The position numbers were made by a program, and so were the translations under genes. From positions 1,059,127 to 1,123,126 of the forward strand of contig RPGP01000040.1 in the NCBI GenBank assembly GCA_004193555.1: 64,000 nucleotides of DNA, written 5' to 3'. This DNA comes from Desulfobacteraceae bacterium Eth-SRB1 (GTDB taxonomy: Bacteria > Desulfobacterota > Desulfobacteria > Desulfobacterales > ETH-SRB1). Of this stretch, positions 2,751 to 63,900 are shown piece after piece. Each line of letters opens with the position of its first letter. Positions within the stretch are counted from its first letter, which is position 1. The notes beneath the pieces are model-generated. The model did no database searches. It was not told the DNA's origin and saw nothing but the letters and a program-made list of their open reading frames with translations.

Positions 2751-2870
2751 GATGAACGTCCAACATCGAACATTGAACGTCGAACGTCGAATAATGATGT
2801 CGCTCCGCTCCTCAAATTATTTTAAAATCGAACAAAAAACAAACACCCAATACCGAACATTCAACCACGC
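2751..2870. repeat. GAACGTC-type heptad repeat element (half of the element at 34361-34495)
   Basis: GAACGTC CAACATC GAACATT GAACGTC GAACGTC GAATAATGATGTCGCTCCGCTCC; shared in inverted orientation with 34430-34490. Confidence 0.8.
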
Positions 2871-2895
2871 CAAGGCATGGTTTCTTTTGAGATGT

Positions 2896-5859: not shown

Positions 5860-5886
5860 TTGACAATTAATACATTATGATATAAC
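5860..5886 (+). promoter_or_regulatory. candidate sigma-70-type promoter upstream of rho
   Basis: TTGACA-N15-TATAAC in AT-rich intergenic DNA; spacing shorter than optimal. Confidence 0.3.
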
Positions 5887-6184
5887 TTTAAAAAAAGTTA
5901 GGCACTAAACCCGCCTGCTGGAGAGAATACCTCATTAGTTAATTTCTTCTGAAAAATCAAAAAATAATCATATTCTCCTCCATAAACCAAGCATGAAACC
6001 GATTCTAAGAGTCCTTTGCAAAATGCCCCTTTTGCCCAATTTAGGCGTCAGGCTCAGATTTTAATACTCGAAATATTCAATATATTTCTCCGGTTAAAAT
6101 CTTCGTCTTCCTTGAACATGAACAAAATTGAACTTTTTTCAAAGGTCTCTAAGTATCCGCATATAATCAGGGCATTATATTGTA

Positions 6185-6436
6185 ACTCAAGTTTCGCACC
6201 CTTTAATTTAGCCAAAGCGTTGGACGGTAAGGGCTAAAAATAAACTTTTAAAGCGAAATATACTACCTGTAGTTTTAACGGCGGTGCCAATCAATTAATA
6301 TAAGATTGATGCTTAATACATCGTTAAATTCAATATGTTATATCTCCTTTGCGCCTGATCATAATGTATAGCGAACAGGTTGCTGGTTACAAAATATAAG
6401 CAAATGATTTCGCTGTAAAAATGTTATTTTCAACCT
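6185..6436 (+). mobile_element. MITE-like element, 3'-truncated copy
   Basis: ACTCAAGTTTCGCACCCTTTAATTTAGCC... near-identical to 14447-14690 with the right terminus missing. Confidence 0.75.
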
Positions 6437-6495
6437 TTTCTCCAAACTAACTTGGAGAAGAAACCTAAAAAGTAAAATAGAGGGGAAAATGTTTA

Positions 6496-7743: not shown

Positions 7744-7766
7744 AAAAGAAAACGGGGGTTACAAAC

Positions 7767-7985: not shown

Positions 7986-8017
7986 ATTTTTTTGTAAATC
8001 TTATATTAAAAAATCAC

Positions 8018-8137: not shown

Positions 8138-9214
8138 ATGTTTGATAAATTAAAGGGAGTGGAAGAACGGTTTGTTGAACTTGAAAAGCTTTTAAGCGAT
8201 CCCGCAATCGTTACTGACAGGGAGGCATATCAGAAGTATAGCCGCGAGCACGCCGATTTAAACAAGATTGTCCCTGTTTTCAGGACGTACAGGAACATCT
8301 TAAAAGATCTTGATGACAGCATGGACCTGCTAAAAGACGCAGACCCGGACATAAAAGATCTGGCTAATGATGAAGTTAATTCACTCACAGTCAAAAAAAA
8401 TGCTTGTGAAGAGGAACTGAAAAAGCTTCTTATACCTAAGAATCCACTGGATGAAAAGAATGTTTTAATTGAAATACGGGCCGGCACGGGAGGTGAAGAG
8501 GCAGGCCTCTTTGCAAGCGATCTTTTTAAAATGTACGGAAAGTATGCTGAGAACAGGTCATGGAAAGTAGAGGTCATGAGCCATCACGCGACCGGCGTCG
8601 GCGGTTTAAAAGAGATTATCGCAATGGTGCATGGCAGGGGAGCATACAGCCGTTTAAAATATGAAAGCGGCACACATCGTGTTCAGCGTGTTCCCACAAC
8701 AGAAACCCAGGGAAGAATCCATACATCTGCTGTTACCGTTGCCGTGCTGCCCGAAGCCGAAGATGTTGAGGTTCATATTGATCCGGGTGACATTAAGGTC
8801 GATGTGTATCGTTCTTCAGGGCCTGGTGGGCAGTCTGTGAACACAACCGATTCCGCGGTGCGTATCACACATCTTTCTTCAGGCTTGGTAGTAACGTGTC
8901 AGGATGAAAAATCGCAGCTAAAGAACAAAAATAAGGCCATGAAGGTTTTACGGGCCCGTCTTCTTGACATTATGATCAGGGAGCAGAATGAACAGAGATC
9001 AGAAGAGCGAAAAAGCCAGATAGGAAGCGGAGATAGAAGCGGGAGAATCAGAACATATAACTTTCCCCAGGGAAGGGTTACTGATCACCGTATCGGACTT
9101 ACCCTTTATAAACTGGAAAACATTCTCCATGGCGATATCGACGAAATAATTGACAGTCTTGCCACATATTATCAAACTAAATCTTTACAGAATGCAGAGT
9201 CACTCACAGATTAG
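8138..9214 (+). CDS. prfA: peptide chain release factor 1
   Basis: [22 protein letters not shown]... with [21 protein letters not shown] track begins upstream at 8099. Confidence 0.95.
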
Positions 9215-10169
9215 CGCTCCTGAATGGACCATACTCAAACTTCTCAAATGGTCCACCTCATATTTTCAATCCCACAATATTGACAGCCCGAGGGCAGCAG
9301 CCGAAATACTCCTTGCACACGCCTTAAAATTGAAAAGGATAGATCTATACCTGCGTTACGATCAACCGCTTTGCAGCAACGAACTTGCTGTTTTTAAATC
9401 CTTAATACAAAGGAGACTGACAAAAGAGCCGGTGGCCTATATTGTAGGCGTAAAGGAATTCTATTCCATGGACATTGCTGTTACAAATGATGTTCTCATA
9501 CCGAGACCTGAAACCGAACATCTTGTTGAGGCGGCAATTGCGCTTCTCCCTGATAATTCAGGTTCTGATTTAAACTTCGAGAAAAAGCGTGTCTTAGAAC
9601 TTGGCACAGGTTCCGGAGCAACAGTTCTGGCTCTTGCATCCCAGCGGCCGGAGCATATATATTTTGCGTCAGATCGTTCCATAAAGGCCGTTGAAACAGC
9701 GAAAAGAAACGCAATACATCATAATCTTGACAGCAAAATATATTTTTTTGCATGCGATTGGTTTGCGCCCCTGAAGAATCATATCCGTTCCTTTCAGCCA
9801 CTCAGCCACTCAGCCACTCGACCACTCGATCACTCGATCACTCGACCATTCGATATGATTATATCAAATCCGCCCTATATACAAACTTTGGCGATTAGCC
9901 GGCTACAGCCTGAGATATATAAACATGAACCTCTTATGGCTTTTGATGGAGGAGAAGACGGTCTTTGCTGTCTCAGACATATTATCGGCAATGCTCATGA
10001 CTATCTCAAGCCTGGCGGCGGTCTTTTGCTTGAGATAGGTTATGACCAAAAAAATGAGGTGCGTAAGATAATAGATTTAAGTGGCAATTATGAACAGGTG
10101 TTTTTTATAAAAGACTATAGCGGGAACTATCGTGTAGTGCAAATGATGAAAAAGGGAGGTATAAAATAA
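9192..10169 (+). CDS. prmC: peptide chain release factor N5-glutamine methyltransferase
   Basis: [16 protein letters not shown] and IISNPPYIQ motifs; directly downstream of prfA. Contains an in-frame heptad insertion. Confidence 0.9.
9792..9852 (+). repeat. heptad repeat array inside prmC
   Basis: CAGCCACTCAGCCACTCAGCCACTCGACCACTCGATCACTCGATCACTCGACCATTCGA, 7-nt period, in frame ([20 protein letters not shown]). Confidence 0.9.
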
Positions 10170-11225: not shown

Positions 11226-11232
11226 ATTGATT

Positions 11233-11400
11233 GGTTCAATGGTTCAGGGTTCAATGATTATAATCTATTGACACCTATCACCTTATAACACAACACCCAG
11301 ATGGGTGAAACATGCGTGTTATCCCTGCCGAGGTATCATCTTTTTGATATCAGACAGTTGCTTTTCAACCGGGAACCGTGAACGTTGAACCGCTTAACCC
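11233..11400. repeat. heptad-armed inverted element between rpsB and tsf
   Basis: GGTTCAATGGTTCAGGGTTCAATG at left; AACCGGGAACCGTGAACGTTGAACC at right. Confidence 0.6.
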
Positions 11401-12024: not shown

Positions 12025-12741
12025 TTGGCATTTCCAAAGTATAAAAGAATTTTGTTGAAATTAAGCGGCGAAGCCCTGATGGGAGATCATGGCTTTGGAA
12101 TCAGCCAGGATGTAATGAAGTATATTGCAGATGAGGTGCGTTCGACATTTGATCTTGGTGTTCAGGTGGCCATAGTTGTCGGCGGCGGCAATATTTTCAG
12201 GGGAGTTGCCGCCAGTTCATACGGCATGGATCGGACATCTGCCGATCATATGGGGATGCTGGCCACAGTGATCAACAGTCTGGCGCTTCAGGATGCTTTA
12301 GAGAAGAAAGGTATGCAGACCCGTGTTCAGTCTGCCATATCGATGCATGAAGTGGCTGAACCGTATATACTCCGTAAAGCTGTCCGCCATCTGGAGAAAG
12401 GGCGCGTTGTGATATTTGCGGCAGGCACAGGCAACCCCTACTTTACAACAGATACAGCCGCGGTCTTAAGGGCTCAGGAAATTCATGCTGAAATACTTTT
12501 AAAGGCCACCAAGGTTGACGGTCTTTACGATTCAGACCCCCTTGTTAACGCTGATGCCAAATTTATAAAAAAAATCAGCTACATGAATGTTCTTGAAAAG
12601 CAGCTTAAAGTCATGGATATGACAGCGATCTCCCTGGCCATGGACAATCAGCTCCCTATCGTTGTTTTTAATTTAAAAGACAGGGAAAATATCAGAAAGG
12701 TTGTATGCGGAGAGGAGGTCGGCACACTTATTAATGGTTGA
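12025..12741 (+). CDS. pyrH: UMP kinase
   Basis: [44 protein letters not shown]. Confidence 0.95.
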
Positions 12742-12966
12742 GTAGTCGAGTAGGGAATTAGTCGAGCAGGGAGAATAGTCAAGTAGTCGAGAGGCCACGA
12801 CTGAAGTGATTATACTTTACACCCCTATAAACTGCGGTTTTTAAAACTGTCATAATGATAAAGAATAAAATTAAACCATGAAGATTATTAATACTTTTAT
12901 AATTTCTTAGTGCTTTTCGTGGTAAAAAACATAAAATTATGATTGTTTACAGTACAGGTGAAAGAG

Positions 12967-14260: not shown

Positions 14261-14446
14261 CCAGTAGGGAGTAGGCAGAGCGAGGACTTATGATTGTCGA
14301 TACGCGGCGCAAGCGCCTGCGCTGTGCGTTGAAAAGATAGAATTACATCAATCAACAATCAACAATGCAAAGAGATCAGAGAACCGGCAACCTTGAACCG
14401 TGAACCTTATAACCCAGACCGAAGGGATTGCAGTCAATAATAAATA

Positions 14447-14743
14447 ACTCAAGTTTCGCACCCTTTAATTTAGCCGAAGCGTTAGACGGTAAGGGCTAAA
14501 AATAAATTTTAAGGCGAAACATACTACCTGTGGTTTTAACAACGGCGCCAATCAATTAAGTATAAGATTGATGCTTAATACGTTGTTAAATTCAATATGT
14601 TATATCTCCTTTGCGCCTGATCGTAATGTATGTCGCACAGGGTGCTGTTTACAAGATATAAGCAAATGAATTCGCTGTAAAAATGTTATTTTCAACCCTT
14701 ACCGTCTTGACATTCCTAAAAATTAAGGGTGCGAAACTTGAGT
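14447..14743. mobile_element. MITE-like element, complete copy with terminal inverted repeats
   Basis: ACTCAAGTTTCGCACCCTT... / ...AAGGGTGCGAAACTTGAGT termini; imperfect inverted similarity extends about 70 bp inward (GACGGTAAGGGCTAAAAATAA); flanked by AAATA on both sides; no ORF. Confidence 0.8.
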
Positions 14744-14765
14744 AAATAATTTTTACGAGGTCTGT

Positions 14766-15620
14766 ATGCATTTAAAACGTTGGCTTACAGCTATTGCAGC
14801 TCTTCCATTACTTTTTTGGGTGATTCTCAAAGGAGGGCATCTTCTTTTTGCCGCATTAATTGTCATAGCAGCTATTTTATCTTTGGATGAGTATTTTAGT
14901 ATAGTTTTAAATGACAGAGCCAAAACCAAAGACCCAACATCTAAAGCACAAAGTCCAAACAGACTCTATCTTAAGGTTTCTGCTTTTATTATCGGGCTAA
15001 TGATAATTTTGGCCGCATTTAACAATTTATTCGATGTTATGATCGGCCTTGTTATTTTGAATGTTGTGCTTTCCAGCTTGTATTTGTTGCGGAAATTCAG
15101 GTCTGATCCATTAGCTTTAGAAATAATTGCAAAGCAGGTTATGGGTATTATATACATACCATTATTTCTCTCCTGCCTTGTTTTGATACGAAACGGCCCT
15201 GATGGAGTCAAATGGGTTTTCTTACTGTTATTGCTTGTTTTTGCATGTGATACAGGAGCATACTATATCGGCACATATATGGGACGCCGTAAACTTTGCC
15301 CTTCAATAAGTCACGGAAAGACCGTTGAAGGTTCTATCGGAGGGATTGCCGCAAGTCTTGGAGCAGGCCTGATTTTTAAGAATTTTTTTCTGCCGCAAAT
15401 GCCGTGGGGATATATCATACTTTTTTGCCTTTCCATTGCCGCAGCAGGGCAGGTGGGCGACTTGTTCGAATCAGCTCTCAAGCGGTCAGCAAACGTTAAA
15501 GATTCCGGTGTAATCCTTCCCGGCCATGGAGGTATCCTGGATCGTATCGATGCGTTGTTGTTTGCAGCGCCTGTGGCCTATTTTTTAAAGGAATATTTAT
15601 TTTCAAGTGCCTTAAAGTGA
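14766..15620 (+). CDS. cdsA: phosphatidate cytidylyltransferase
   Basis: CdsA signature GHGGILDRIDALLFAAPVAYF; 284 aa membrane protein. Confidence 0.92.
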   Translation: MHLKRWLTAIAALPLLFWVILKGGHLLFAALIVIAAILSLDEYFSIVLNDRAKTKDPTSKAQSPNRLYLKVSAFIIGLMIILAAFNNLFDVMIGLVILNVVLSSLYLLRKFRSDPLALEIIAKQVMGIIYIPLFLSCLVLIRNGPDGVKWVFLLLLLVFACDTGAYYIGTYMGRRKLCPSISHGKTVEGSIGGIAASLGAGLIFKNFFLPQMPWGYIILFCLSIAAAGQVGDLFESALKRSANVKDSGVILPGHGGILDRIDALLFAAPVAYFLKEYLFSSALK

Positions 15621-15845
15621 GCTAAAGTATGTTAAAGTGCCTAAAGCCCGCCCTGGTGCGACACGTTAGTATATTTGGATATCCAATGCATCATTCTAAG
15701 ACTGACTTTTTTTTACTGTATAGTAGTTGTGACCGGTCTGGGCCAGGGTTATGGAGTCGCTTCGCTCCATTATTTTACATACAATTAGCAGCACCGAAGG
15801 TGCATTCCTTAACTTTAGGCATTTTAGGCGCTTTAGTTCACTTAT
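15605..15845 (+). repeat. CTAAAGTG-type dispersed element, copy 1
   Basis: About 235 bp near-identical in inverted orientation to 25762-25999; both ends carry GTGCCTAAAGT heptads. Confidence 0.85.
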
Positions 15846-15860
15846 AACTTTTACTATACT

Positions 15861-17015
15861 ATGAAATATCTTTCCATACTGGGTTCTACAGGATCAGTGG
15901 GTTGCAATGCTCTTGAGATAGCGGGAAAATTCCCTGAGCGCTTTGCTGTAAAGGCGCTGTCAGCAGCGCATAATGTTGAACTGTTAGCTGGACAGATTAA
16001 GAAGTTCCGCCCGGAAATAGCAGTGGTTCTAAATGCAAGCAGAGCTCTTGAGCTGAAAAGTAGGCTTCCTGCCGGCATTTCTGTTGAAATAATGCATGGC
16101 CAGGATGGATACAGGGCTGCGGCCACACATTCATCTGTTGATATGGTTGTTGTTGCAATTGTGGGAGCTGCCGGTCTGATACCGACCCTGGCCGCGATAG
16201 AGGCAGGCAAGGACATCGCCCTGGCCAATAAGGAAACCATTGTGATGGCGGGCGAAATCGTTTCAAAAACGGCGGCTCAAAAAAACGTAAAGATACTGCC
16301 AATCGACAGCGAGCACAGCGCAATTTTTCAATGCATTGTGGGACACCGGAAGGAGGACCTTGACAAAATACTCCTGACAGCTTCAGGTGGACCTTTTTTA
16401 CACAAACCTGAAAAAGAATTTTCAAAAATAACACCGGAGGATGCCCTGAATCATCCAATATGGCGTATGGGCAAAAAGATCAGCGTGGACTCAGCGACTC
16501 TTATGAACAAAGGGCTTGAGGTCATAGAGGCAAAATCTCTTTTTACGGTTTCTCAGGATATGATTAAGGTCTTAATTCACCCGCAAAGTGTTATTCATTC
16601 AATGGTTTCATACAGAGATGGCTCGGTAATTGCCCAGTTAGGCATTCCGGATATGAAAACAGCCATTGCATATGCCATATCATATCCTGAACGTCTTCCC
16701 CTTGAGCAACCGATACCGGATTTTCTTAATATTGAGGCTCTTACCTTTGAGCAGCCGGATTCAGGAAAATTTCCATGTCTTGATCTGGCTTATAATGCTT
16801 GCAGAGCCGGTGGAACGATGCCTGTGGTACTTAATGCGTCAAACGAAGTGGCAGTGGAGTCATTTTTAATGCAGAGAATATCATTTGTCAAAATTCCGGA
16901 AATTATCAGCAAAACAATGGATAAACATTCTGTTGTTGTAAATCCGGCGCTTTCCGACATTATCGAGACTGACAGGTGGGCAAGGGAAACAGCGTATAAA
17001 ATGGTAAAATTATGA
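15861..17015 (+). CDS. dxr: 1-deoxy-D-xylulose-5-phosphate reductoisomerase
   Basis: MKYLSILGSTGSVGCNALEIA, ALANKETIVMAGE, PIDSEHSAIFQ. Confidence 0.96.
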   Translation: MKYLSILGSTGSVGCNALEIAGKFPERFAVKALSAAHNVELLAGQIKKFRPEIAVVLNASRALELKSRLPAGISVEIMHGQDGYRAAATHSSVDMVVVAIVGAAGLIPTLAAIEAGKDIALANKETIVMAGEIVSKTAAQKNVKILPIDSEHSAIFQCIVGHRKEDLDKILLTASGGPFLHKPEKEFSKITPEDALNHPIWRMGKKISVDSATLMNKGLEVIEAKSLFTVSQDMIKVLIHPQSVIHSMVSYRDGSVIAQLGIPDMKTAIAYAISYPERLPLEQPIPDFLNIEALTFEQPDSGKFPCLDLAYNACRAGGTMPVVLNASNEVAVESFLMQRISFVKIPEIISKTMDKHSVVVNPALSDIIETDRWARETAYKMVKL

Positions 17016-22037: not shown

Positions 22038-22286
22038 TTGATTTTCATCCATAACTGGTTATTTTCACCGGTTTTTCTTTTATATTTAGATTTAGCCACA
22101 GACCCACGCAGACACATAGAGACCTTTGCAAAAGCCTCGTTTTGGTCGATTCTGGTGTTATGCAAAGCTCTCATATAGTAACAACTACTTGACCAGTTAA
22201 CTACTCGACCACTTGACGAGGCCCGAAGTAGTAGATGGCGCAGAATTTGCATAAATCAATTTTAAACCCCATTCTTCAGAGACCCT

Positions 22287-23158: not shown

Positions 23159-23781
23159 ACCTATTGAATTGTTTGTCTAAAAATAGAGAAAGCGGTTTTA
23201 CCCTGGTGGAACTGCTGATTGCCATGACTATAGGCCTGCTTATCCTTGCGGCATTGTCGAGCACTTTCCTTATGCAGCGCAAAACGTATGATATCCAGGA
23301 ACAGATTGTCGAGATGGTGCAGACCGCAAGAGCTGCCATGGATATGATGACGAGAGAGATCAGGATGGCAGGGTATGACCCAACAGACGCGGGTTTTGAC
23401 GGTATTACATATAATGCGGATCAATTACAGATACAGGCAGATATAGATAATGATGCCGGCACTGGTGTTCCTGATGGTGATACCGGCGACGCAAATGAAA
23501 ATATAGTATATAAATATTATAACACTTCCGAGTATCCTTATCAGATCAAGAGAAAAACCGGTAATGGGTCTTTTCAACCATTTGCCGAAAACATTCAACC
23601 ATTTACTTTTGAGTACTTAGACAGCGCCGGCAGCGCCACGACAACAACCGCCGATATCCGGCAGATAAAGATTACAATAACCGCCAGAACATCCAAAGCA
23701 GACGCTGATTATTCCGCAAATGGCGGATACAGGACACACACTTTAACCTCTTTGGTAACACCAAGGAATCTTGGTTTATAG
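23155..23781 (+). CDS. PilW family minor pilin
   Basis: SGFTLVELLIAMTIGLLILAALSSTFLMQRKTYDIQEQ...MTREIRMAGYDP. Confidence 0.87.
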   Translation: MNLLNCLSKNRESGFTLVELLIAMTIGLLILAALSSTFLMQRKTYDIQEQIVEMVQTARAAMDMMTREIRMAGYDPTDAGFDGITYNADQLQIQADIDNDAGTGVPDGDTGDANENIVYKYYNTSEYPYQIKRKTGNGSFQPFAENIQPFTFEYLDSAGSATTTTADIRQIKITITARTSKADADYSANGGYRTHTLTSLVTPRNLGL

Positions 23782-23793
23782 AAAACTCGTTGC

Positions 23794-25146
23794 TTGTTAC
23801 TGGTTGCTCGTTTCGACTACTCGACCAAGTTTACAATGGAGTTTGGGATGTTAAATTTAATACATAAAAATGAAAAAGGGATGGTTCTTCCTCTCGGGCT
23901 TATGTTTCTCGCTATTATAACGGTTTTGGGTTCCACAGCGGTTATAGTAACAACAACAGATCTTAAAATCGGCAGCAATTACAGGGCCAGTGAACAGGCA
24001 TTTTATGCGGCGGAAGCTGGAATAGAAGAGGCAAAAGCGCGTCTTAGGGGATCATCCACGGCTGCCGATTATGCGGGAGACCCTTCTTCAACTTACGATG
24101 CATGGTGGTCTGCATACATATTAACATCAGACTCGTGGCAGACATCCGATGATTCGGGCTATGACGCAAATTACAACAACTACATTCCAACTTCAGTTTC
24201 CCATACAAATACAACCATTACGGTAAACAGCCTTCAGACAGATATCTCATATTTTGTCAAAATCAGGCACAAGAGAGAGCATGATGCTGAACAGGCAGGG
24301 CATACAACCTCGTTACCACACTACTATGATGGTGACGGAAATACAGGAACCAATCCCGCCACTGCACCGGGAAACATCGTTTATTACGGTTATGGAGACC
24401 CCTCTCAGCCCACAACTGCAGTCCAGTTTACAACATCGGGGACAACAGAACACAAGCCGGTTGAAATCATAACAGCTTACGGACAAAGCAGCAACAGCCT
24501 TAAAACAGTAGAGATTGAGGTGGTGAAAAACCCCGGTCCTCTGGTAAATTCCGCTATGTATGCAAAGGGTGATGTTACAGGAAACGGCAGCTCTCTGAGT
24601 GTTGACGGAAACGATAACTGCGGGTCAGCTCCTGCCAAGCCCTCTATTTATACACTATCTCCTGCTGAGACAATCCTGAACGGCACCCCGACACTCTCTC
24701 CCGCGGAGACACAGGGAACAGACAATATTGATATTTCTGGTTACGTCGACAGTCTAAAAGCTTCAGCCACCGAGACAATAACGGCAGACCAGAATGGTAC
24801 AACTTACGGAGACGCCGGCAATTTTGTTGCCTGTTACTCCAACACGTCCGATCCATACAATGTCAACGGTTTGAGTCTGTCAGGCGTAACTGGTTACGGA
24901 ATTCTTCTGGTAGAAGGTAATTTAACGCTGGGCGGAGGTTTTAGCTGGAATGGCCTTATTCTCGTTACAGGCACACTTACATTTAACGGAGGTGGCTTGG
25001 GGATAAATATTAAGGGCGCTGTGCTGGCAAACCAGACCATTGATATTAACGGCGGAATAGACATAAAATATGACAGTTGCATGATTGATAATTCCCTAAA
25101 CAACCAGTCGCTGGATATTATCAGGTGGAAGGAGTCCTACTATTGA
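23794..25146 (+). CDS. PilX N-terminal-like pilus assembly protein
   Basis: KGMVLPLGLMFLAIITVLGSTAVIVTTTDLKIGSNYRASEQAFYAAEAGIEEA; true start probably an internal ATG near 23836-23848. Confidence 0.8.
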   Translation: MLLVARFDYSTKFTMEFGMLNLIHKNEKGMVLPLGLMFLAIITVLGSTAVIVTTTDLKIGSNYRASEQAFYAAEAGIEEAKARLRGSSTAADYAGDPSSTYDAWWSAYILTSDSWQTSDDSGYDANYNNYIPTSVSHTNTTITVNSLQTDISYFVKIRHKREHDAEQAGHTTSLPHYYDGDGNTGTNPATAPGNIVYYGYGDPSQPTTAVQFTTSGTTEHKPVEIITAYGQSSNSLKTVEIEVVKNPGPLVNSAMYAKGDVTGNGSSLSVDGNDNCGSAPAKPSIYTLSPAETILNGTPTLSPAETQGTDNIDISGYVDSLKASATETITADQNGTTYGDAGNFVACYSNTSDPYNVNGLSLSGVTGYGILLVEGNLTLGGGFSWNGLILVTGTLTFNGGGLGINIKGAVLANQTIDINGGIDIKYDSCMIDNSLNNQSLDIIRWKESYY

Positions 25147-25688: not shown

Positions 25689-25761
25689 AAGATTCTCCGG
25701 CATCTTTCAAAACAGGGCAAAAGTAGTTGACACTTTTTTAAACTTGTATGATCACACAAAA

Positions 25762-25999
25762 ATAAGTGCCTAAAATGCCTAAAGTTAAGGAATGCGCCTT
25801 CGGCGCTGCCAATTGTACGGGTATGTAAATTAATGGAGCGAAGCGACTCCATAACCCTGGCCCAGACCGGTCACAACTACTATACAGTAAAAAAAGTCAG
25901 TCTTAGAATGATGCATTGGATATCCAAATATACTAACGTGTCGTACCAGGGCGGGCTTTAGGCACTTTAACATACTTTAGCTCACTTTAAGGCACTTTA
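25762..25999 (-). repeat. CTAAAGTG-type dispersed element, copy 2
   Basis: Reverse complement of 15605-15845 with few substitutions. Confidence 0.85.
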
Positions 26000-27070: not shown

Positions 27071-27114
27071 AGCTCACTCCGATATTTGATTGGATTAATG
27101 GAGTATTGATGGCT

Positions 27115-27233
27115 TCGTAAAAAGTCGTCACTCCGGTGAAAACCGGAGTCCAAAGACTGGATAGCGCTAAAGCTTCACTACGTGCCCGGCTTTCCATGGA
27201 ATGACAAAAAAGTGGTTTTTCGACTTTTTACGA
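27115..27233. repeat. intergenic palindromic element
   Basis: Perfect 13-bp inverted ends TCGTAAAAAGTCG / CGACTTTTTACGA with inner CTCCGGTGAAAACCGGAG hairpin. Confidence 0.75.
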
Positions 27234-27348
27234 GTTTATCAATATTGGGCTTAGCGGAATCAGATCAATTTTTTATCCCGCCAGTCCATTATTCCACTAT
27301 TCCAAGCTGTTATATCCCTCTTTTTGTTTATTTGTCAAGCTTTTCAAT

Positions 27349-30837: not shown

Positions 30838-30936
30838 TTGGGTAGCGTAGTTAAAAAGCGAAGAAAGAAAATGAGAAAACATAAACACAGAAAACTTCTG
30901 GCACGTACACGCCATCAAAGAAGAAAGGGTAAATAG
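30838..30936 (+). CDS. AURKAIP1/COX24 domain (bS22-like) small ribosomal protein, 32 aa, TTG start
   Basis: (M)GSVVKKRRKKMRKHKHRKLLARTRHQRRKGK*; GGGGGTG Shine-Dalgarno-like run upstream; below the ORF track length cut-off. Confidence 0.85.
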   Translation: MGSVVKKRRKKMRKHKHRKLLARTRHQRRKGK

Positions 30937-30939
30937 GGA

Positions 30940-31028
30940 TTAAGGATTAAAGTGTTAGGTGTTAAGATAAAACATTTAATCGTCATATCAAGCTCTTAAC
31001 ACTTAACACTTAACACTTAACACTTAAT
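30940..31028. repeat. heptad repeats with inverted arms next to the hflC stop
   Basis: AAGTGTTAGGTGTTAAG ... CTTAACACTTAACACTTAACACTTAACACTTAA. Confidence 0.85.
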
Positions 31029-31029
31029 T

Positions 31030-31974
31030 TTATTTTGAATATCCTTTTAGATATTTAAAAAATTCTGAATCGGTTGAAAGAACAAGATCACTTGTATCAT
31101 CTAATGCTTCTTTGTAAATTTCGAGTGTCTTTGTGAATGAATAGAATTCCGGATTTCTTCCATATGCATCAGCAAATAATTTTGTAGCCTCTGCATCTGC
31201 TTTTCCCTTTATTTCCTGGGCAGTCCTGTAAGCTTCCGAGGTTATTTGTTTTAAATCCCGCTCTTTTTCACCAAGAATTTTGCGGGCTTCCCCCATACCT
31301 TCGGAGCGGAATTTTTCCGCAATCTGATTCCGTTCCGCAACCATTCTGCCATAAACAGACTGTCTTACCTGCTCCACATAATTTATGCGCTTGATTTTAA
31401 CATCCACAAGCTCGATGCCGAATTTAACGAGTTTTGGCTGAGCCTGTTTCAATATCCCTGCTGTTATCTTTTCTCTGCCGGTTGTAATGTTATAAGCGTC
31501 CAGACGCTCCTTTTTAACATCTTCCAGGCCTACTTCAGAGATGTTCAGTTCCCTGTTGGTGTTGCGGACAGCCTCAATCAGCCTGTAAGAGGTAATAAAG
31601 TTTCTTACAGCAGGGTCTATGATATCATCAAGCCGTGCAAGAGCGCTGACCGTATTGCTTACCGTCTGAAAAAAATTAATTGGATCAACGATTTTCCATC
31701 TCGCAAAGGTATCAACCCATATATAGGTTTTTTCAAGGGTGGGTATCTGGCCCGGATCGCCATCCCATTGCAAAAGGTTTTTTGGAAAATAGGTTGCATG
31801 CTGTATAAAAGGGATCTTAAAGTAAAGCCCTGGATTTAATTTTGGTGTTCCCACAACCCTTCCAAATTGAGTTACAACCGCCTGCTGTGTCTCGTCAACA
31901 GTATATGCTGAGGAGAAAACAAGCAGGAAGGCAATTACAGCTATTGATATTAATATAATGTTTTTAGATTTCAT
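31030..31974 (-). CDS. hflC: protease modulator HflC
   Basis: SPFH/band-7 protein (VDETQQAVVTQFGRVVG...); paired with hflK. Confidence 0.93.
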   Translation of the reverse strand: MKSKNIILISIAVIAFLLVFSSAYTVDETQQAVVTQFGRVVGTPKLNPGLYFKIPFIQHATYFPKNLLQWDGDPGQIPTLEKTYIWVDTFARWKIVDPINFFQTVSNTVSALARLDDIIDPAVRNFITSYRLIEAVRNTNRELNISEVGLEDVKKERLDAYNITTGREKITAGILKQAQPKLVKFGIELVDVKIKRINYVEQVRQSVYGRMVAERNQIAEKFRSEGMGEARKILGEKERDLKQITSEAYRTAQEIKGKADAEATKLFADAYGRNPEFYSFTKTLEIYKEALDDTSDLVLSTDSEFFKYLKGYSK

Positions 31975-33011: not shown

Positions 33012-33295
33012 TGTTTTATTATCCTGTAAAAATATTTATAGGGTTGCTTTAACTAAGATTATGTCAATGTAAATTACAAGTTGTTCCAAGTCAAGCTTAA
33101 ACCTGAATTAAACGATTTTTTGCTCGATCTGCGCCGATTTCTTGCGCATAAAGGCTTCGCAAAAATCTTAGACATATCCATGGGAAAAAAATAGTATTGA
33201 TTCGACAAAACTGTTTTTCTTGACAATAAAACCGGTATCCTTCATTTTGTGGTTTACACTTCTTTCAAGATTTTTCTTTTTATGGTTTTGCTGTT

Positions 33296-33607: not shown

Positions 33608-33612
33608 AAAAA

Positions 33613-34332: not shown

Positions 34333-34360
34333 ATGGTCGAGTGGTCGAGAGACTGAAAAA

Positions 34361-34495
34361 AATGAACGTCGAACATCGAACGTTCAACGTCGAATTTTGA
34401 ATAAGGTATTCTACCAATCTATAAAACTGGCGGAGCGGAGCGACATCATTATTCGACGTTCGATGTTCAATGTTCGATGTTGGACGTTCATCTTT
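34361..34495. repeat. GAACGTC-type palindromic heptad element
   Basis: GAACGTCGAACATCGAACGTTCAACGTCGAA ... TTCGACGTTCGATGTTCAATGTTCGATGTTGGACGTTC. Confidence 0.9.
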
Positions 34496-34522
34496 CAAAT
34501 GAACCGGGTTTTGGTTCAGACG

Positions 34523-35851
34523 CTAAGTGGTCAGCCTGTTTATTACCTGGCCGGTTATAACCTTTGGATAAAAATAGGTTGATTTTCTCGGCATTATCAG
34601 GCCCTGCCGGGCAATATTACCCACCTGCTCAATTTTTGTAGGATTAAGGATAAAGGAAATATCACAGCTGCCGGATGCAACCTCTTTGATGGCCTGTTTC
34701 TCAGAGCTCGAATAGGCGATTAGTTTTATATTATCCAGCATTGATTGATCAAAACCGAGGATCTCCATTAAAATCAGGCGTGTCAGCACAGTAACGTCAA
34801 GATTTATTAATGAATCTGAAAGTTCTTTGCCGAACATCTGTTGCATGATTTGTGCTTTTAGTGTCAGCAGGTAAAATTCGGGCCGGTTTTTTATAAAAAC
34901 CCCGATTATATTTTTTGAACTGTTTGATCTAAGAGCCGAGATAAATTGCATACGGGCATTTTCCCTGCTTTTTTCATTAAACGGGATGGTTGTTATTTCA
35001 AAGTAATTTCCGGCTTTTTTAATAAATGTTTCAAGATCAGAATCCTGAACATTTTTCAGCATGCGGTGTGCCGGAAGAATAATAAGCCCGGGATCTTCCA
35101 TGCTGCTGAGATACATCATTACATAGTTGGCCGGATGATCGGCGCTGAAACCGGGATTAATTTCGGATATCCAGTCCCTGTATTTAAGAGCTGTTTCATA
35201 TCTATGATGACCATCAGCGATGAGCAGTTTTTTTTCCTTCATCGCATCGGTTATATGACTGTGCACAGATCTATCGGTTATGCGCCACAGCCTGTGTTTA
35301 AGGCTGTGGCTGTCAATAAATTCCATATCCGGCGCTTTAGCGCCGGCTGCATCCTTTAATGAACCCAGAATGTTATTCTGATCGGAATAAATTCCAAAAA
35401 TCGGGCTGAAATTGGCATGGCAGGTTTTTATAAGTTCAAACCTTTCTTCCGTTACTCTGGAGAAGGTTTTTTCGTGCGGGATAATTATTCCCCTGTTAAA
35501 AGGTTCAAGGCCAACCAGAGCAATCAGGCCGTAGCGTGTAATTATTTTATTTTCTAAAGAAAACTCCACACTTGAAAGGTAAAGCGAAGGTGAGTTGTCC
35601 TGCACCAGGATATTTTTTGAGAGCCAGTCATTAAAAAGACCCGCGGCCCTTGTGTGCCAATTGTTTGTATTTGTGTCATTTTCAGCCTGTTTGCCTAATG
35701 TCAGCCGGATAATATTGTATGGATGCCGGTTATGGAAATCGAGCTGTTCCTGTTTTGAGATAACATCATAAGGGGGTATTGTAACATCCCCGAGGTTATG
35801 AATCTTGTCAGGATTATAAAAAATTCCTCTAAACGGTATAATTTTAGCCAT
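34523..35851 (-). CDS. DUF1015 family protein
   Basis: MAKIIPFRGIFYNPDKI...PPYDVISKQEQLDFHNRHPYNIIRL...IADGHHRYETALKYRD. Confidence 0.88.
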   Translation of the reverse strand: MAKIIPFRGIFYNPDKIHNLGDVTIPPYDVISKQEQLDFHNRHPYNIIRLTLGKQAENDTNTNNWHTRAAGLFNDWLSKNILVQDNSPSLYLSSVEFSLENKIITRYGLIALVGLEPFNRGIIIPHEKTFSRVTEERFELIKTCHANFSPIFGIYSDQNNILGSLKDAAGAKAPDMEFIDSHSLKHRLWRITDRSVHSHITDAMKEKKLLIADGHHRYETALKYRDWISEINPGFSADHPANYVMMYLSSMEDPGLIILPAHRMLKNVQDSDLETFIKKAGNYFEITTIPFNEKSRENARMQFISALRSNSSKNIIGVFIKNRPEFYLLTLKAQIMQQMFGKELSDSLINLDVTVLTRLILMEILGFDQSMLDNIKLIAYSSSEKQAIKEVASGSCDISFILNPTKIEQVGNIARQGLIMPRKSTYFYPKVITGQVINRLTT

Positions 35852-36193
35852 GTTTTATATGTTCCTTTATCTAACATTCTCACGCAAAGGCGCAAAGACG
35901 CAAAGGATAAAAAACAAAACCTTTGAGCGAGCCCTTAGCGCTTTTGTATGAATCTTCAACCTCTTGGAGCTATGCTGCCTCCTTGTATCCTCATCGATTT
36001 TGACGTTTTCATGCTTGATTCGTGCTGACACCTGATACTAAAATGAGAAATGATTATCAAGCTAAATGATTATTGAAAAGAATTAATTTATCACGAAAAT
36101 ACGAAGACACGAAAGATTATTGACAGGGTATATCAAAAATTATATTCAAATTTACTTGTTCCTTAAATACTGGGAGATTTGTAAAGGTTTCTT

Positions 36194-36286
36194 GGAGAGG
36201 TTGCCGAGTGGCTGAAGGCCCCGCTCTCGAAAAGCGGTATCCTGTGAATAACGGGATCGTGGGTTCGAATCCCACCCTCTCCGCCA
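36194..36286 (+). tRNA. tRNA-Ser (CGA)
   Basis: Acceptor GGAGAGG/CCTCTCC, anticodon loop CTCGAAA, long variable arm, GGTTCGAATCC T-arm, encoded CCA. Confidence 0.95.
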
Positions 36287-36492
36287 AAAAGTGCCTAAAG
36301 TGCCTAAAGTGAGCTAAAGTGCCTAAAGTTATGGTACGTCTTCCGCGTGCTAATTGATAATCCAAAGCCACAGGAGTTTGCAACCTTGTGCATTGATGGC
36401 TTAAGGAACATACCTGTCGGCAGGTATAAAATGGCAGAATTTCTTAACTTTAGGCACTTTAATATACTTTAGCGCACTTTAGGCACTCATAA
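36287..36492. repeat. CTAAAGTG-type element with a different core, between the two tRNA-Ser genes
   Basis: AAGTGCCTAAAGTGCCTAAAGTGAGCTAAAGTGCCTAAAGTTA ... TTAACTTTAGGCACTTTAATATACTTTAGCGCACTTTAGGCACT. Confidence 0.8.
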
Positions 36493-36498
36493 GTTCAT

Positions 36499-36592
36499 GG
36501 AGAGATGTCCGAGCTGGCTGAAGGAGCACGACTGGAAATCGTGTGTGCTGCCAAAAGCGGCACCGAGGGTTCGAATCCCTCTCTCTCCGCCA
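36499..36592 (+). tRNA. tRNA-Ser (GGA)
   Basis: Acceptor GGAGAGA/TCTCTCC, anticodon loop CTGGAAA, long variable arm, encoded CCA. Confidence 0.95.
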
Positions 36593-36612
36593 AAACACTC
36601 TGGAAAACTTTT

Positions 36613-36731
36613 ACCACAGAGATCACAGAGCACACTGAGATTTTGTCATCTTTCATAATTGGCTAAAAGCAGTATGCATTTTTGTATGAAATGCTTTGTT
36701 CTTCCTTGGTTTTCTCTGTGCTCTCTGTGGT
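36613..36731. repeat. inverted element with ACAGAG-type arms
   Basis: ACCACAGAGATCACAGAGCACACTGAGA ... TCTCTGTGCTCTCTGTGGT. Confidence 0.7.
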
Positions 36732-36785
36732 AAATCCATTTTTTTTTGCAAAGGTCTCAAGTTGTCAACATGGATATTTTCTAAT

Positions 36786-38471
36786 ATGTCTTATATTGTT
36801 TTTGCTCGTAAATACCGGCCACAGACATTTGATGAAGTTATAAAACAGGAACATGTTTCCAAAACCCTGGCCAATGCTATTTCATCGAATCGGGTTTCCC
36901 ATGCGATCCTGCTCTCAGGGCCAAGAGGTACCGGAAAGACAACCGTTGCGCGAATACTGGCAAAGGCAATGAATTGCAAAAAAGGGCCGACTCCCGTTCC
37001 ATGCAATTCATGCAGATCCTGCACTGAGATTACTTCCGGTTGTTCCGCGGATGTGCTTGAAATAGACGGCGCATCAAATAATGGTGTAGAGCAGATCAGA
37101 ACCCTGCGTGAAAATGTCAAATACATGCCGGCATACAGTCTTTACAAGATATATATTATTGATGAAGTCCACATGCTCAGCATCGCGGCTTTTAACGCTC
37201 TTTTAAAAACTCTTGAAGAGCCGCCGGAGCACGTCATGTTTATTTTTGCCACCACCGAACCTCACAAGATCCCGATTACCATTCTTTCCCGATGTCAGCG
37301 ATACGATTTCCGGCGTATAGATGTTGAATCTCTTTCAAAACATATGGAGATGATTTGCACGAAAGAGGGGGTCGATATTTCCATTGAAAGCCTGTCGATC
37401 ATTGCGCGGGTGGCAGGCGGCAGCATGCGAGACGCCTTAAGTCTTCTTGACCAGGTAATTTCTTGCGCCCAGGGGTCTGTTACACATGAACAGGTGTTAG
37501 ATATATTAAGCGTTATTGATAGAAAAAAAATCTATGACATTTCAGAGGCGATTTTAAGCGGAGATGTTGCGGGGATTCTTTGTATTCTGGATGAGATTTA
37601 TAATCGCGGCTATGAAATGAAAAGGTTGTATTCAGATCTTGTCGAACACTTCAGGAATCTTATTGTTGTAAAGATGGGGAAAGATGTAAAAAAACTGGTT
37701 GATCTTCCAGCGTATGAAATTGATCTGGCACAGGAACAGATAAAGGATGTAACCGCTGTTTATTTGAATCAGATTTTAAATCTTCTTTTCAAGGAGGAGC
37801 CTGCGATAAGGTTTTCAGCCCAGCCAAAGCTTACCCTTGAAATGATTTTTATCAAAATGTTTCAGATTAAACCTGCGATGCCTATAGAACTGCTGATAGA
37901 GAAACTTGACAGCATGAAAAACAAGGTCTATGAAAAACAGGGAAATGAAATTTTTGAACATCAGATGCCTTATGGCGATTATAACAAAAGACCCGCTGCT
38001 TGCGATGACGGAAAAGATTTGCAGGCCCCGCCTCGCATCTCGAAAGAAACTGAAGGCTCAAATGAACCCGTTGCCGCAACTTGTCTGCACGATGCCAAAG
38101 ATCATGAAGGGACATGGAAAAAACTACTTGATGTTTTTCTGAAAAACTATCCTTCTCTCGCCGCCAATCTGACGAGATGCACCCTTAAAAAGATGACAGA
38201 CCATGGGCTGGAGATAGAGGTAAACGGCAATGGTTTTAATTTAAAGATGCTCAGGCGCAGTAAAAACATGGCCATCATAAAAAAGGTGTGCGAAGACTTT
38301 TTTGGGAAAAAGATGGATTTTGCTATAACGGAAAAAAAGAAACAACAGGCTGAAAACAAATCTAAAAAGACCGGGGAAGAGCATTTTAAAAAGGAAGCTT
38401 TAAGCCACCGTCTGGTCGCCGACGCGGTTGAAATATTCAGTGGTAATGTTGTAGATGTAAAAATATTATAG
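36786..38471 (+). CDS. dnaX: DNA polymerase III subunit gamma/tau
   Basis: [62 protein letters not shown] zinc site. The upstream extension in the ORF track is repeat-derived. Confidence 0.95.
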
Positions 38472-38484
38472 GAGGTATTTTTTT

Positions 38485-38796
38485 ATGAAAGGTATGGGAA
38501 ACATGATGAAGCAGGCCCAGAAGCTTCAATCAAGGATGCTGAAATTGCAGGAAGATCTGGCCGAAAAGACCGTTGAGGCAACTGCAGGCGGAGGCATGAT
38601 TAAGGTGGTAGCAACCGGCAAACAGCAGGTCTTGTCAATTCAGATAGAAAAGGAGGTCGTCGATCCTGATGATGTGGAAATGTTGCAGGATTTGATATTG
38701 GCAGCGGTTAATGATGCTTTGGCAAAAGCACAGGAAATGGTTTCCGGAGAAATGAGCAAACTTACAGGTGGAATGAATATACCGGGGCTGATGTAA
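38485..38796 (+). CDS. YbaB/EbfC family nucleoid-associated protein
   Basis: [44 protein letters not shown]; between dnaX and recR. Confidence 0.95.
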
Positions 38797-39397: not shown

Positions 39398-39436
39398 ATT
39401 AGCCACAGACCCACACAGACAGACGCAGACAAGATA

Positions 39437-54539: not shown

Positions 54540-55008
54540 AACTGCCGGAAAAGAGATTCAGGTAGTAATCTTTCGCCTTGGAAGGGAAGAGTTCGGAGTC
54601 AGGATAGATCAGGTGAAAGAGATTATTGAAATGACCCATATAACCCGAATGCCAAAGGCCCCGTCTTTTATCGAAGGGGTAATAAACCTCAGGGGGCAGG
54701 TGATTGCTGTTATTGATTTAGCCAAACAGTTTGATCTCCCTGCATCCGAGCATGACGAAGAAACCCGAATCGTAGTGGTTGATGTTGATGATAACACAGT
54801 GGGCATGCTTGTTGATTCTGTCCCCGAGGTACTCAGAATCTCTGCGGAGGATATTGATCCGACCCCCTCCCTTATAGAGAACAGGATAGATACAAGATAT
54901 ATTGAAGGGATCGGGAAGCTCGAGGACCGTCTCTTTGTCCTGCTGAAACTCGGCAAGGTGCTTTCTCCCGAAGAGGTGGAAAGGATGGAAGAGACGGTGG
55001 GGGATTGA
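54526..55008 (+). CDS. cheW: chemotaxis coupling protein CheW
   Basis: [56 protein letters not shown]. Confidence 0.94.
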
Positions 55009-55056
55009 TGCTGGATGCTTGAAACTTGAAACCGGATGCTTGAAACTTAATGCTGA
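55009..55056 (+). repeat. heptad spacer between cheW and cheD
   Basis: GATGCTG GATGCTT GAAACTT GAAACCG GATGCTT GAAACTT AATGCTG. Confidence 0.9.
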
Positions 55057-55913: not shown

Positions 55914-55998
55914 AGAAACTTGAAATTTGAAACTCGATGCTGGATGTTGACTCCAAAAACATTGTTATGAGAGCTACTGGAAATAGTGAAGGAAAAAG

Positions 55999-57069
55999 AT
56001 GACTAACAAGATTCGTGTTCTGGTGGTGGATGATTCCGCCTTGATGAGGCTGATGATTTCAGACATTCTCAATTCTGATGAGGAGATCAAGGTGGTGGCT
56101 ACGGCCAGAGATGGTGAAGACGGTATTAAGAAAGTAACCGAGCTAAGACCCGACGTGGTTACCCTCGATATTGAAATGCCGCGTCTGGATGGTTTGCACG
56201 CCCTGGGTTATATCATGAGCGAGATTCCCACTCCTGTGGTCATGATCAGCGCCTATACTCAAAAAGGGGCAGAGGCTACCTTTCGTGCACTGGAGTACGG
56301 AGCGGTCGATTTTGTTTCCAAGCCATCAGGGCCTATATCAGGAGATATAAGAGCGATAGGCGATGAATTGATAGCCAAGGTAAAAATGGCTGCTTCGGTC
56401 GATTTTAATAACCTTGGATTCATACGGCCTAAAAAGATTTCTGAAAAGTATATAAAACATAAACCCGGGAAAATTGTTCCGGGAGTCGGGGTTGTGGCTA
56501 TTGGAGCATCCACGGGAGGACCTCGTGCCTTAGAGAAGATTCTCCCCCAGCTTGACCCTGATATTCCCGCAGGATTATTGGTTGTGCAGCACATGCCCAA
56601 AGGGTTTACTGAAACGTTTGCCGCCAGACTCGACAGGGAATCTAAAATAGATATAAGAGAGGCAAAAGCTGGTGATAAAATAGAACAGGGAAAGGCATTG
56701 ATTGCGCCTGGTGATTATCACATGTCTATAATGATAGAAACAACAGGCAATAATATGGCTGGTGGTGTTATAAGTCTTAATCAGGATCCTCCTGTCCATG
56801 GCCTGAGGCCCACGGTTGATACCATGATGCTTTCAGCGGCAGAGGCCTACGGGAATAAAATTGTAGGAGTTCTTCTGACGGGCATGGGCAGCGACGGAGC
56901 AAAGGGAATGAAGGCCATAAAGGAGAATAAGGGCAGGACAATTGCCCAGGATAAGGATACCTGTGTGGTGTATGGTATGCCCAGAGCGGCAGTTGAAGCG
57001 GGGATTGTGGATAAGGTGGTTCCTTTAGATAAGATGGCGGAAGAGATAATGAAGATGCTGGAAACTTGA
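55999..57069 (+). CDS. cheB: protein-glutamate methylesterase CheB
   Basis: REC domain plus GASTGGPRALEKILPQL, VVQHMPKGFTETFAARLD, GVLLTGMGSDGAKG. Confidence 0.95.
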   Translation: MTNKIRVLVVDDSALMRLMISDILNSDEEIKVVATARDGEDGIKKVTELRPDVVTLDIEMPRLDGLHALGYIMSEIPTPVVMISAYTQKGAEATFRALEYGAVDFVSKPSGPISGDIRAIGDELIAKVKMAASVDFNNLGFIRPKKISEKYIKHKPGKIVPGVGVVAIGASTGGPRALEKILPQLDPDIPAGLLVVQHMPKGFTETFAARLDRESKIDIREAKAGDKIEQGKALIAPGDYHMSIMIETTGNNMAGGVISLNQDPPVHGLRPTVDTMMLSAAEAYGNKIVGVLLTGMGSDGAKGMKAIKENKGRTIAQDKDTCVVYGMPRAAVEAGIVDKVVPLDKMAEEIMKMLET

Positions 57070-57105
57070 AACCGGATGCTGGAAACTGGTTTCTGGATGG
57101 TGGAG
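57059..57105 (+). repeat. heptad spacer between cheB and cheA
   Basis: CTGGAAA CTTGAAA CCGGATG CTGGAAA CTGGTTT CTGGATG. Confidence 0.85.
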
Positions 57106-60812: not shown

Positions 60813-60967
60813 AAATCATGCTTTCTATTGTACTATTTTCTTTGCAATGCGATTTGGCTTTTTGTTCCTAAAAATTGCGGATTTTGAATTTAAGGAATTC
60901 TATCAATCCAGCGGCACAGCCTCGGGCATTGAGATGGAGTCGCGGGGCATATGCTGAGGAGGCCATT

Positions 60968-63900
60968 ATGAAAAATATTTCAATGAACGACCTGACATTT
61001 GACCCGCAATGGCAATACGAGAATCCGCAAACCAAAGTGGCCTACCGCAACGGAATCATTGCCGGGTCCCTGTTCTTTTCTTCTATGAGCGGAAACATCA
61101 CCATTGAGGATGCCGGATCCGTTGTTGAGGTTCTGGAAAGGGTATTTGCCAAAGGCAGGTTTGATAATACTGCCTATGTGCGCATTGCCGATTATAGCGG
61201 CATTATACGGGGATCGTTCATGGCGCGGCAAAAGTATGCGCGTACGCTCCAGCGTATCAACAGAGAGCATAACTGCAGGCCTTCTGTTACCTATATATGC
61301 GGTGCAAATGCTATAACTCGGGCAACACTGCTGTTTGCGCAAAAAATAATGCAAGTGAATTTTATATTTGTTTCCACTGTTGACGAGGCGTTTGAGCTGG
61401 CCAATACTTCTCGGCCCGCTCATGATGACGATATAGAATTGTCGCGTGAGGCTGACAAGAGCGTGGCTGTTTCGCAGAAAGACATAGATGCACTGGTGCA
61501 ATTGACCGGATCTGCTGTTTGGGATGAATCACCTGATAACAGCGCTGTCATAGATGCCGGCAGCCCCCTCAATACTCTTTATCAGGCGTTGCAGGAAGCC
61601 AGCTGTGATATGCGCGAGTTGATACAGAGGGAAAGAGAGGAGATTGCCGAGCGCAAGCGGGCAGAAGAAGCAGCCGGGACGGAGAACGCCAAGCTTTCCG
61701 CTATGATTTCCGGCATGGACGAAGGAGTGGTCTTTGCGGATGCCGATGACAGGATCGTGGAGGTCAACAACTACTTCTGTAACTTTGTGGGCAGAGATCG
61801 GGAAGCTATTGCAGGGAAGAATATCGAGGAATTCCACTCAGGCGCTGTGCTTGAAAAAGTTCGAAAACATATCTCCTCTTTCCGCAAGAGCCCAGGTTCG
61901 GACCCCGTTGTCATACAAAGGTCATTGGGAAAGTCAGAAGTCATCTTCCGCATTCAGCCCATCTATTTGGATGGCCGGTATGTTGGGATTCTCCTGAACG
62001 TCGTTGACGTGACCGAACTTGTCATGACACGCCGTGAAGCTGAGGATGCCAGCCGCGCCAAAAGTGAATTTTTGGCCAACATGAGTCACGAGATCCGCAC
62101 ACCCATGAACGGAATAATCGGCATGACAAACCTGGCCTTAGACACCGATTTGACCAGACAGCAGCAGGAATACCTGAAAATGGTGAAAATCTCAGCAGAC
62201 TCCCTGCTTTCAATTATAAATGACATTCTGGATTTTTCCAAGATCGAAGCGCATAAGATGGAGCTGGAAGAGATCCAGTTTAACCTGCGCAACACCGTGG
62301 GAAATGCCGCTGATATGTTGGCGGTTAATGCGCACGAAAAGGCATTGGACTTTATGTTCCATATCAAATCCGACGTGCCCACAGCGCTCACGGGAGACCC
62401 TACCAGACTTCGCCAGATTATTGTAAATCTAACTGGAAATGCCATCAAGTTCACTGAAGAAGGGGAGGTGGTCATCCTGGTAGCAATGGAAAAGAAAGAA
62501 GAGTCTTCGGCGCTTTTACATTTCATGGTATCGGATACGGGCACGGGCATTCCCGCTGACAAGATAGATACAATTTTTGAAAGCTTTACCCAGGCAGATG
62601 GATCAACTACCCGGAAATACGGGGGCACAGGACTGGGCATGGCCATCTCTAAACAGTTTGTGGAGATGATGGGAGGGCGCATTTGGGTAGAAAGCCCGTC
62701 ACATTTTGGATTGGGGGATGCGGAAAACCAAAATCCAAAATCCAAAATCGGAGGTCCCGGCAGCACATTTCACTTTACCGTTCGTTTCGGGTTGAGTCCG
62801 GCAAAGGCAGGAGAAGCGGTCGTGTTGAGCCGGCCTGATCTTTCAGGAAAGCGGATTCTCATCGTGGACGACAATGCCACAAACCGTTTTGTCTTTCAGG
62901 AAATGACCTCTTTATGGGGATTGTTGCCGGAAGAAGCGGAAGACGGGTATCAGGCCCTTGCCATGATTGATCGGGCATATGACTCCGGCGAATCTTACAA
63001 GCTTGTCCTTCTGGACTTACAGATGCCAGGACTGGACGGATTTGCTGTGGCAAGGAGAATAAAAGAAATGTCTTTCGGGAAGAATATACCTATAATACTG
63101 CTGACCTCTTTGGGGCAGAGAGGGGATGTAGCGCACTGCAGGGAGGTGGGAATATCGGGGTATTTGCATAAACCGGTCAAGCAGTCGGAGCTTTTGGATG
63201 CCATCATGATGGCCATGGGCAGCCCTGAAAAAGAAGAGACTCCTGTTATTACCCGCCATACGATTCAGGAGGCTCGAATGAGACTCAACATTCTGTTGGC
63301 CGAGGACAACCCGATTAATCAGCGGCTTGCGCAGGAGCTTTTAGAGACAAGGGGGCACAGGGTTGTTTTGACTTCAAACGGAAAGGAGGCTGTGGATGCT
63401 TTTGAGAAAGAACGGTTTGACCTGATCCTGATGGATGTGCAGATGCCTGAGATGGACGGATTCGAAGCCACGCGACAAATCCGCAATCTGCAATCTGCAA
63501 TCCAAATTCCAAATTCCAGATTCCAAAAAGTTCCTATTGTGGCGATGACTGCTCATGCCATGAAGGGAGACAGGGAGAAGTGTCTTGCGGCCGGGATGGA
63601 TGATTATGTGCCAAAGCCGATAAATGCGGAAGATCTTTTTGGTGTTATCGAAAAATTGACTCATGGACTGCAGGATAAGAAAGAGCCTTCTATTCCCAAA
63701 AAGATGGATGAGACAGTATCTGAAGATGTTTTTGACCTGTCAAAGGCTCTTGAGGTTGTTGTTGGAAAAAAGGAACTTTTTTATGAGATAGCAGATATGT
63801 TTTTAGAGAATCTGCCCGAAAATATTGCCGATATTAAAGAGAAAATTGCGGCAGGTGATATGCAGGGCCTGGAGAAGGCTGCCCACAGCCTGAAGGGTTC

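Follow-up and report, generated by a model that had tools for sequence, protein, structure and literature searches.

The window analysed here is a stretch of 64,000 nucleotides (G000:C40:1059127-1123126) from the 3.34-Mb, 52-contig genome of Desulfobacteraceae bacterium Eth-SRB1. It carries many short tandem arrays, and many of their copies occupy gaps between same-strand genes. The first-pass annotation had reported such arrays in at least a dozen gaps of the window, and most of the positions it gave do contain one. No tandem array was found at TRF score 30 at 30571, 48340 or 59015, the array at 22094 amounted to just two loose copies, and those at 62724 and 63478 lie not in a gap but inside a sensor-kinase/response-regulator gene. 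The arrays and elements of the window are the following, with the strand named where one is assigned; IVP refers to the PF05635 (23S_rRNA_IVP) genes described below, L to their loci, and G001 is a congener.

2744-2831, forward strand: terminal part of an AACRTCG (GAACGTC) element, comprising a heptad array (2754-2791) and conserved inner sequence; it matches other copies and, read as reverse complement, the right end of L049, an IVP-bearing element.
9794-9853, forward strand: CCACTCGA octad array, TRF period 8.
11232-11392: element with inverted arms GGTTCAA (11232-11256) and GAACCGT (11367-11392), from TRF and an inverted match; arms absent in G001.
12740-12791: GAGTAGTC octad array downstream of gene 12025-12741, TRF period 8; shorter in G001.
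14349-14408: AACAATC and AACCTTG heptad arrays (TRF); G001 has another inverted array pair there.
15602-15850: gene-less AAAGTGCCT element with arms of period 9/10 (15602-15646 and 15812-15836); ends common to the IVP-bearing L042 and L043, precise empty site in G001.
23773-23812: GTTGCTC heptads and, after them, a CGACTACTCGACC octad remnant (TRF); the array at 23785/23810 is shared with G001.
25761-25999: gene-less copy of the AAAGTGCCT element, with inverted arms and the shared ends; absent in G001.
30939-31031: AACACYT hairpin element, arms 30939-30966 and 30995-31027 with a conserved loop; adjoins the remnant of an older GGATTAA array.
34334-34349: TGGTCGAG octad array, period 8; shared with G001.
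34356-34499: gene-less AACRTCG element with inverted heptad arms and a foldback stem (fold z = -8.2), of the family of the IVP-bearing L048 and L049.
35883-35906: CGCAAAGG octad array (TRF).
36285-36495: gene-less AAAGTGCCT element between two tRNA-Ser genes (fold z = -8.5).
36610-36736: CACAGAG / CTCTGTG inverted pair (inverted match).
39404-39431: CACAGAC array, period 8-10.
55005-55055: CTGGATG / CTTGAAA heptads in an operon gap (TRF).
55915-55934: GAAACTT heptads (TRF).
57058-57097: CTGGAAA heptads (TRF).
62724-62749, forward strand: AAATCCA heptads in the sensor-kinase/response-regulator gene (TRF, domain search).
63478-63527, forward strand: AATCTGC and TCCAAAT heptads in a receiver domain of the same gene (TRF, domain search); they leave the reading frame unbroken.

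The octad array at 9794-9853 forms an in-frame insert of 57 bp (19 codons) in a PrmC-like methyltransferase gene (9192-10169, with PrmC_N and methyltransferase domains); the insert is absent in G001, which has a similar single unit, CCATTTGAT, beside the site. Two other dispersed repeats were seen in the window: a MITE, some 310 bp long, whose ends read AACTCAAGTTTCGCACCCTT (6183-6438 and 14439-14752; about 11 copies in 464 kb), and a hairpin family TTCGTAAAAAGTCG...CGACTTTTTACGA (27105-27246), which often adjoins AACACYT elements. Very long arrays lie elsewhere in the genome, at L007 (C40:137207) and L006 (C40:105556), with, for example, an ACGGAGG-type unit repeated 33 times and ACTGCCT repeated 17 times.

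The same annotation had described the period as strictly seven nucleotides. This is wrong, as CACTCGA (9794-9853, 12740-12791 and 34334-34349) repeats with period 8, CTAAAGT (15605, 25762 and 36288) with period 9/10 and CACAGA/CGCAAAG (35883, 36615 and 39404) with period 8-10; an exact search for CACTCGACACTCGA gave zero matches because the unit has 8 nucleotides. For each lag we scored local match runs in intergenic DNA and compared them with dinucleotide shuffles, using the window together with C40:1-400000 (464 kb, 81 kb of it intergenic by a split that is approximate, since genes were called by a simple home-made script). Lag 7 gave 77 intergenic segments against a shuffle mean of 1.3, followed by lag 8 (29 vs 0.8), lag 9 (23 vs 0.6) and lag 10 (11 vs 1.3), while lags 2-6 and 11-13 showed no excess over the shuffles in this intergenic DNA. 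Tandem 7-mers are thus over-represented in intergenic DNA, as in the heptamer class of LSSR, and the excess as a whole is a band of 7-10 and its multiples with its maximum at 7. The peak at lag 7 that had been expected from a common period was therefore found, accompanied by lags 8, 9 and 10, when local runs were scored; single-lag autocorrelation over the whole window was dominated by codon period 3, uninformative, and did not show the effect.

Copies that use the same unit also have the same conserved, non-repeat interior, even when they are distant from one another. In the AACACYT elements two inverted arms enclose a conserved loop of about 30 nt, the AACRTCG elements, of about 140 bp, have a conserved middle between inverted arms, and the AAAGTGCCT family, with three copies in the window, consists of elements of 200-250 bp that also end in inverted arms. 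AACACYT elements with the conserved loop were seen in several related genera as well. Single-strand folding of window elements predicted long stems (z -8.2, -6.3 and -8.5), and together with the inverted matches this bears out the earlier remark that the arms are often inverted. A preference for insertion next to stop codons, at which the window hinted, was weak over the 464 kb (14% vs 9% within 10 nt) and was dropped.

To follow individual sites, we compared window positions 30900-38500 with the orthologous regions of four relatives. The gap between the two tRNA-Ser genes holds four different contents among the five species: in G001 it is about 30 bp long and element-free, in the window it contains the AAAGTGCCT element, in G003 an unrelated one, in which GATTGAA is repeated eleven times and the inverted arm is of TCAATC, and in G005 TAGCTAT-type arms around an IVP ORF (PF05635, 72 bits), of which G008 carries an internally deleted version that lacks the first half of the ORF. 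The element at 34356-34499 is missing in G003 and G005 and internally shorter in G001, and at the site of 30939-31031 another inverted pair, GGATTAA/TTAATCC, takes its place in G001, G003 and G005. Between 9000 and 26500 the alignment of the window with G001 breaks at most arrays. One such break is at 15603-15862, where G001 has a precise empty site at which two genes overlap (TTTTTGTGAAA); about 250 bp have been inserted in the window, and the array now supplies the stop codon of the first gene. No clear target-site duplication was seen at the empty sites inspected.

These observations bear on the possibility that the arrays are ordinary slippage microsatellites, which arise locally and independently because the polymerase favours 7-nt units, a preference of DNA polymerase that Mrazek proposed (as cited in PMC4679880). 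Heptamers are, according to that paper, the commonest long SSR class in many genomes, copy number varies among our loci, and the 9794 octad has its similar single unit in G001. Slippage would nevertheless not be expected to conserve non-repeat interiors between distant copies, to pair and invert the arms or to tie the arrays tightly to one gene family over phyla (see below), and it is already disfavoured by the presence or absence of whole elements at otherwise empty sites. We therefore consider it an unlikely explanation for the arrays in general, but those that have no inverted partner, such as 9794-9853, could be due to local slippage.

That gene family encodes the IVP proteins, for which the genome has 16 PF05635 matches, most of them with arrays nearby, often on both sides and inverted. 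At L042 and L043, two different sites, an IVP ORF lies between AAAGTGCCT arms, and at L048 and L049, again two different sites, another IVP ORF lies between AACRTCG arms. An IVP/S23 ORF between inverted-repeat arms is the arrangement of an IVS. The AAAGTGCCT and AACRTCG copies of the window have the same ends as these four elements and so can be read as their gene-less derivatives; terminal inverted repeats in common with a longer coding element are also what characterizes a MITE. As most window arrays lie far from any IVP gene, their derivation from IVP elements is suggested by shared ends in these two families, which are among the largest, and by analogy in the rest; an IVP-bearing copy was not found for the AACACYT, CACTCGA and ACAGGATT unit families in the data examined. 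The proteins score well above the cut-off of TIGR02436 and weakly against the Avd model (51.5 and 25.9 bits, under its cut-off of 80), and structures of IVP relatives have been solved (2GSC, 2RLD). The elements encode no recombinase or nuclease. There was no rRNA gene at the 14 IVP loci of the genome tested with Rfam, and the copies in the window are flanked by protein or tRNA genes. Two IVP genes, L053/L047 (C40:203162-203444) and L046/L050 (C37:8942-9304), are each split by a small element with the ends CCCTGTTAAATA...TATTTAACAGGG, which sits at the same conserved motif in both; the insert of L053 codes for a GIY-YIG protein (PF01541, 55 bits).

To see how general this layout is, we scanned one genome per species for IVP relatives and obtained 80 loci from about 20 phyla, one archaeon included, a set picked by protein similarity and not at random. 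An alignment of divergent IVPs was too variable for scanning, and a second alignment was used. An array of period 7-10 lies within 160 bp of the gene at 67 of the 80 loci; the other 13 have none at the threshold used. Lag 7 was found in 55.6% of the 160 IVP flanks, compared with 0.4% of shuffles and 3.2% of distant windows, and lag 8 in 7.5%, with lags 2-6 and 9-13 at chance in these flanks. Among matched non-coding flanks, 94 of 159 next to IVP genes have an array, compared with 22 of 116 next to other ORFs of the same loci. Where both arms were present (34 loci), their inverted similarity averaged 0.55, compared with 0.05 when partners were exchanged (highest of 2000, 0.158), and the period was the same on both sides in 33. 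The 101 arrays at IVP loci comprise 78 different units; the coding strand is G-rich in upstream arms (41 of 48) and C-rich in downstream arms (45 of 53). The layout also occurs in isolate genomes, e.g., Bosea, Thiohalocapsa and Faecalibacter, and is therefore no artefact of metagenome assembly. The heptamer follows the IVP lineage: unit similarity between pairs of loci is 0.68 at IVP identities of at least 80%, 0.40 at 65-80% and 0.10 at 55-65%, and falls to the background of 0.05-0.06 below 55%. This association could also be plain co-inheritance that involves no binding. Most IVP elements thus have their own heptamer and share one anatomy, so that the suggestion of the first-pass annotation, one common generator and not one repeat family, holds up well.

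Paired arrays of this kind have been read as binding sites of global regulators in Geobacter metallireducens, where four to five tandem GTTGCTYN or MTYCTGA units are paired on opposite strands at variable distance (PMC2700814). The anatomy is the same as here, and many of our copies lie in gaps between same-strand genes. Against this stand the frequent lack of conservation among congeners, in which the arrays are replaced by unrelated units, and the occurrence of the same kind of array beside IVP genes across phyla, which together make it extremely improbable that regulator sites account for the arrays.

Two enzymes had been put forward as generator, a RAYT-type transposase and a polymerase, and neither is supported. 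If a RAYT (Y1) transposase moved REP/BIME-like palindromes and IVP genes travelled along as passengers, the dispersal of palindromic intergenic repeats would be explained, and the genome has 14 Y1 matches. These genes seldom adjoin arrays, however, and no linked or co-varying Y1 gene emerged: Y1 and IVP numbers show no clear correlation (rho 0.23, p 0.09), 8 of 25 IVP-rich relatives have at most three Y1 matches, and the unit follows the IVP lineage, all of which leaves this explanation very improbable. The other enzyme would be a resident reverse transcriptase copying a stem-loop RNA, with IVP acting like the Avd of diversity-generating retroelements (DGRs). The weak match to the Avd model points in this direction, a stem-loop RNA is plausible from the predicted folds, and the genome itself has 12 RVT_1 matches. 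Yet RVT_1 is absent in 12 of the 25 relatives with at least five IVP genes (G001, G005, G014 and G056 among them) and its counts are uncorrelated with those of IVP (rho 0.06); no RT gene was found adjoining an Avd-like gene as in a DGR, the RT genes rarely lying beside arrays and their loci being almost array-free. We regard a retroelement origin as similarly improbable.

The reading that we favour, and consider probable, is that most of the arrays form the inverted arms of mobile elements of a small, foldback type, which carry an IVP/S23 gene when complete. A complete element consists of units of 7 (or 8 to 10) nt repeated in tandem, an IVP ORF of about 120 codons and the array again, inverted; the ORF encodes a four-helix-bundle protein related to DGR Avd. 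An oligomer of this protein may bind the arms, as a DNA hairpin or an RNA stem, and mark them so that host enzymes copy or insert them. An IVP of Xanthomonas forms a homopentamer (Lin 2006, cited in PMC4990558), and for this reason a ring of subunits reading a spacing of 7-8 nt is an attractive, if putative, determinant of the period. The unit changes fast and the two arms nevertheless change in step, which calls for a process by which one arm is copied onto the other, most simply foldback synthesis: slippage would alter the number of units and foldback synthesis would copy the change to the opposite arm, so that the unit would drift fast while the arms stayed complementary. Gene-less copies would be deletion derivatives, presumably mobilised in trans. 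A single kind of element whose unit changes fast explains why many unrelated units share one period. More tentatively, at a little below even chances, IVP elements may form a separate and very widespread class of prokaryotic mobile element, with a single small nucleic-acid-binding protein, neither recombinase nor reverse transcriptase of their own, and heptad arms homogenised by foldback copying, and be a main source of prokaryotic heptanucleotide repeats.

Over-representation of heptamers in bacteria has been known since at least 2007, with explanations from polymerase slippage to regulator sites. The layout around IVP relatives in about 20 phyla suggests where these long-known seven-letter repeats originate, and tying them to one gene family gives them a single, testable source. 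To our knowledge, the widespread IVP/S23 'four helix bundle' proteins have no known function, and the link offers a likely role for them. It also poses the question of how an element moves with only a gene for a small helical bundle, and how its arms are kept alike while the unit changes.

Several known systems share part of this picture. MITEs and foldback elements are likewise short, non-autonomous and present in many copies, with inverted ends shared with a longer coding element, but here the ends consist of a unit that changes fast and is repeated in tandem, and the coding partner is not a known transposase. The Avd of DGRs is a homologous four-helix-bundle protein, but IVP has no adjacent RT and RT is missing from many IVP-rich genomes. 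The Geobacter metallireducens units are resembled here by the array at 23785 and by the ACCTCTG family, and the sections of PMC2700814 used report no IVP link for the paired sites. The TAACTGA repeats of Beggiatoaceae (PMC4679880), the GGGAATC repeats of Xanthomonas (PMC4692102) and cyanobacterial STRR are likewise intergenic heptamer arrays, patchy over phyla, each studied as one unit and, in the portions of those studies consulted, with no IVP gene reported. STRR are, by analogy, a fair comparison for the window arrays; in one cyanobacterium, Nodularia, the IVP locus L131 has GGGTGTA arms. For a general link between heptamer arrays and IVP we found Coxiella as the only precedent, in a search that covered few subscription papers, so that others may exist. 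In the 23S rRNA IVS of Coxiella, heptamers (GACAGAT) are repeated in tandem immediately before the S23p ORF, in numbers that differ among strains, and such elements have been proposed to be selfish or mobile (PMC4990558). The 23S rRNA IVS of Leptospira and Coxiella encode the same protein family (PF05635/TIGR02436) within an inverted-repeat stem, whereas the elements described here are intergenic or at tolerated sites, occur in many copies and have gene-less derivatives; on this view the intervening sequences of 23S rRNA become one of the places where a general element lands.
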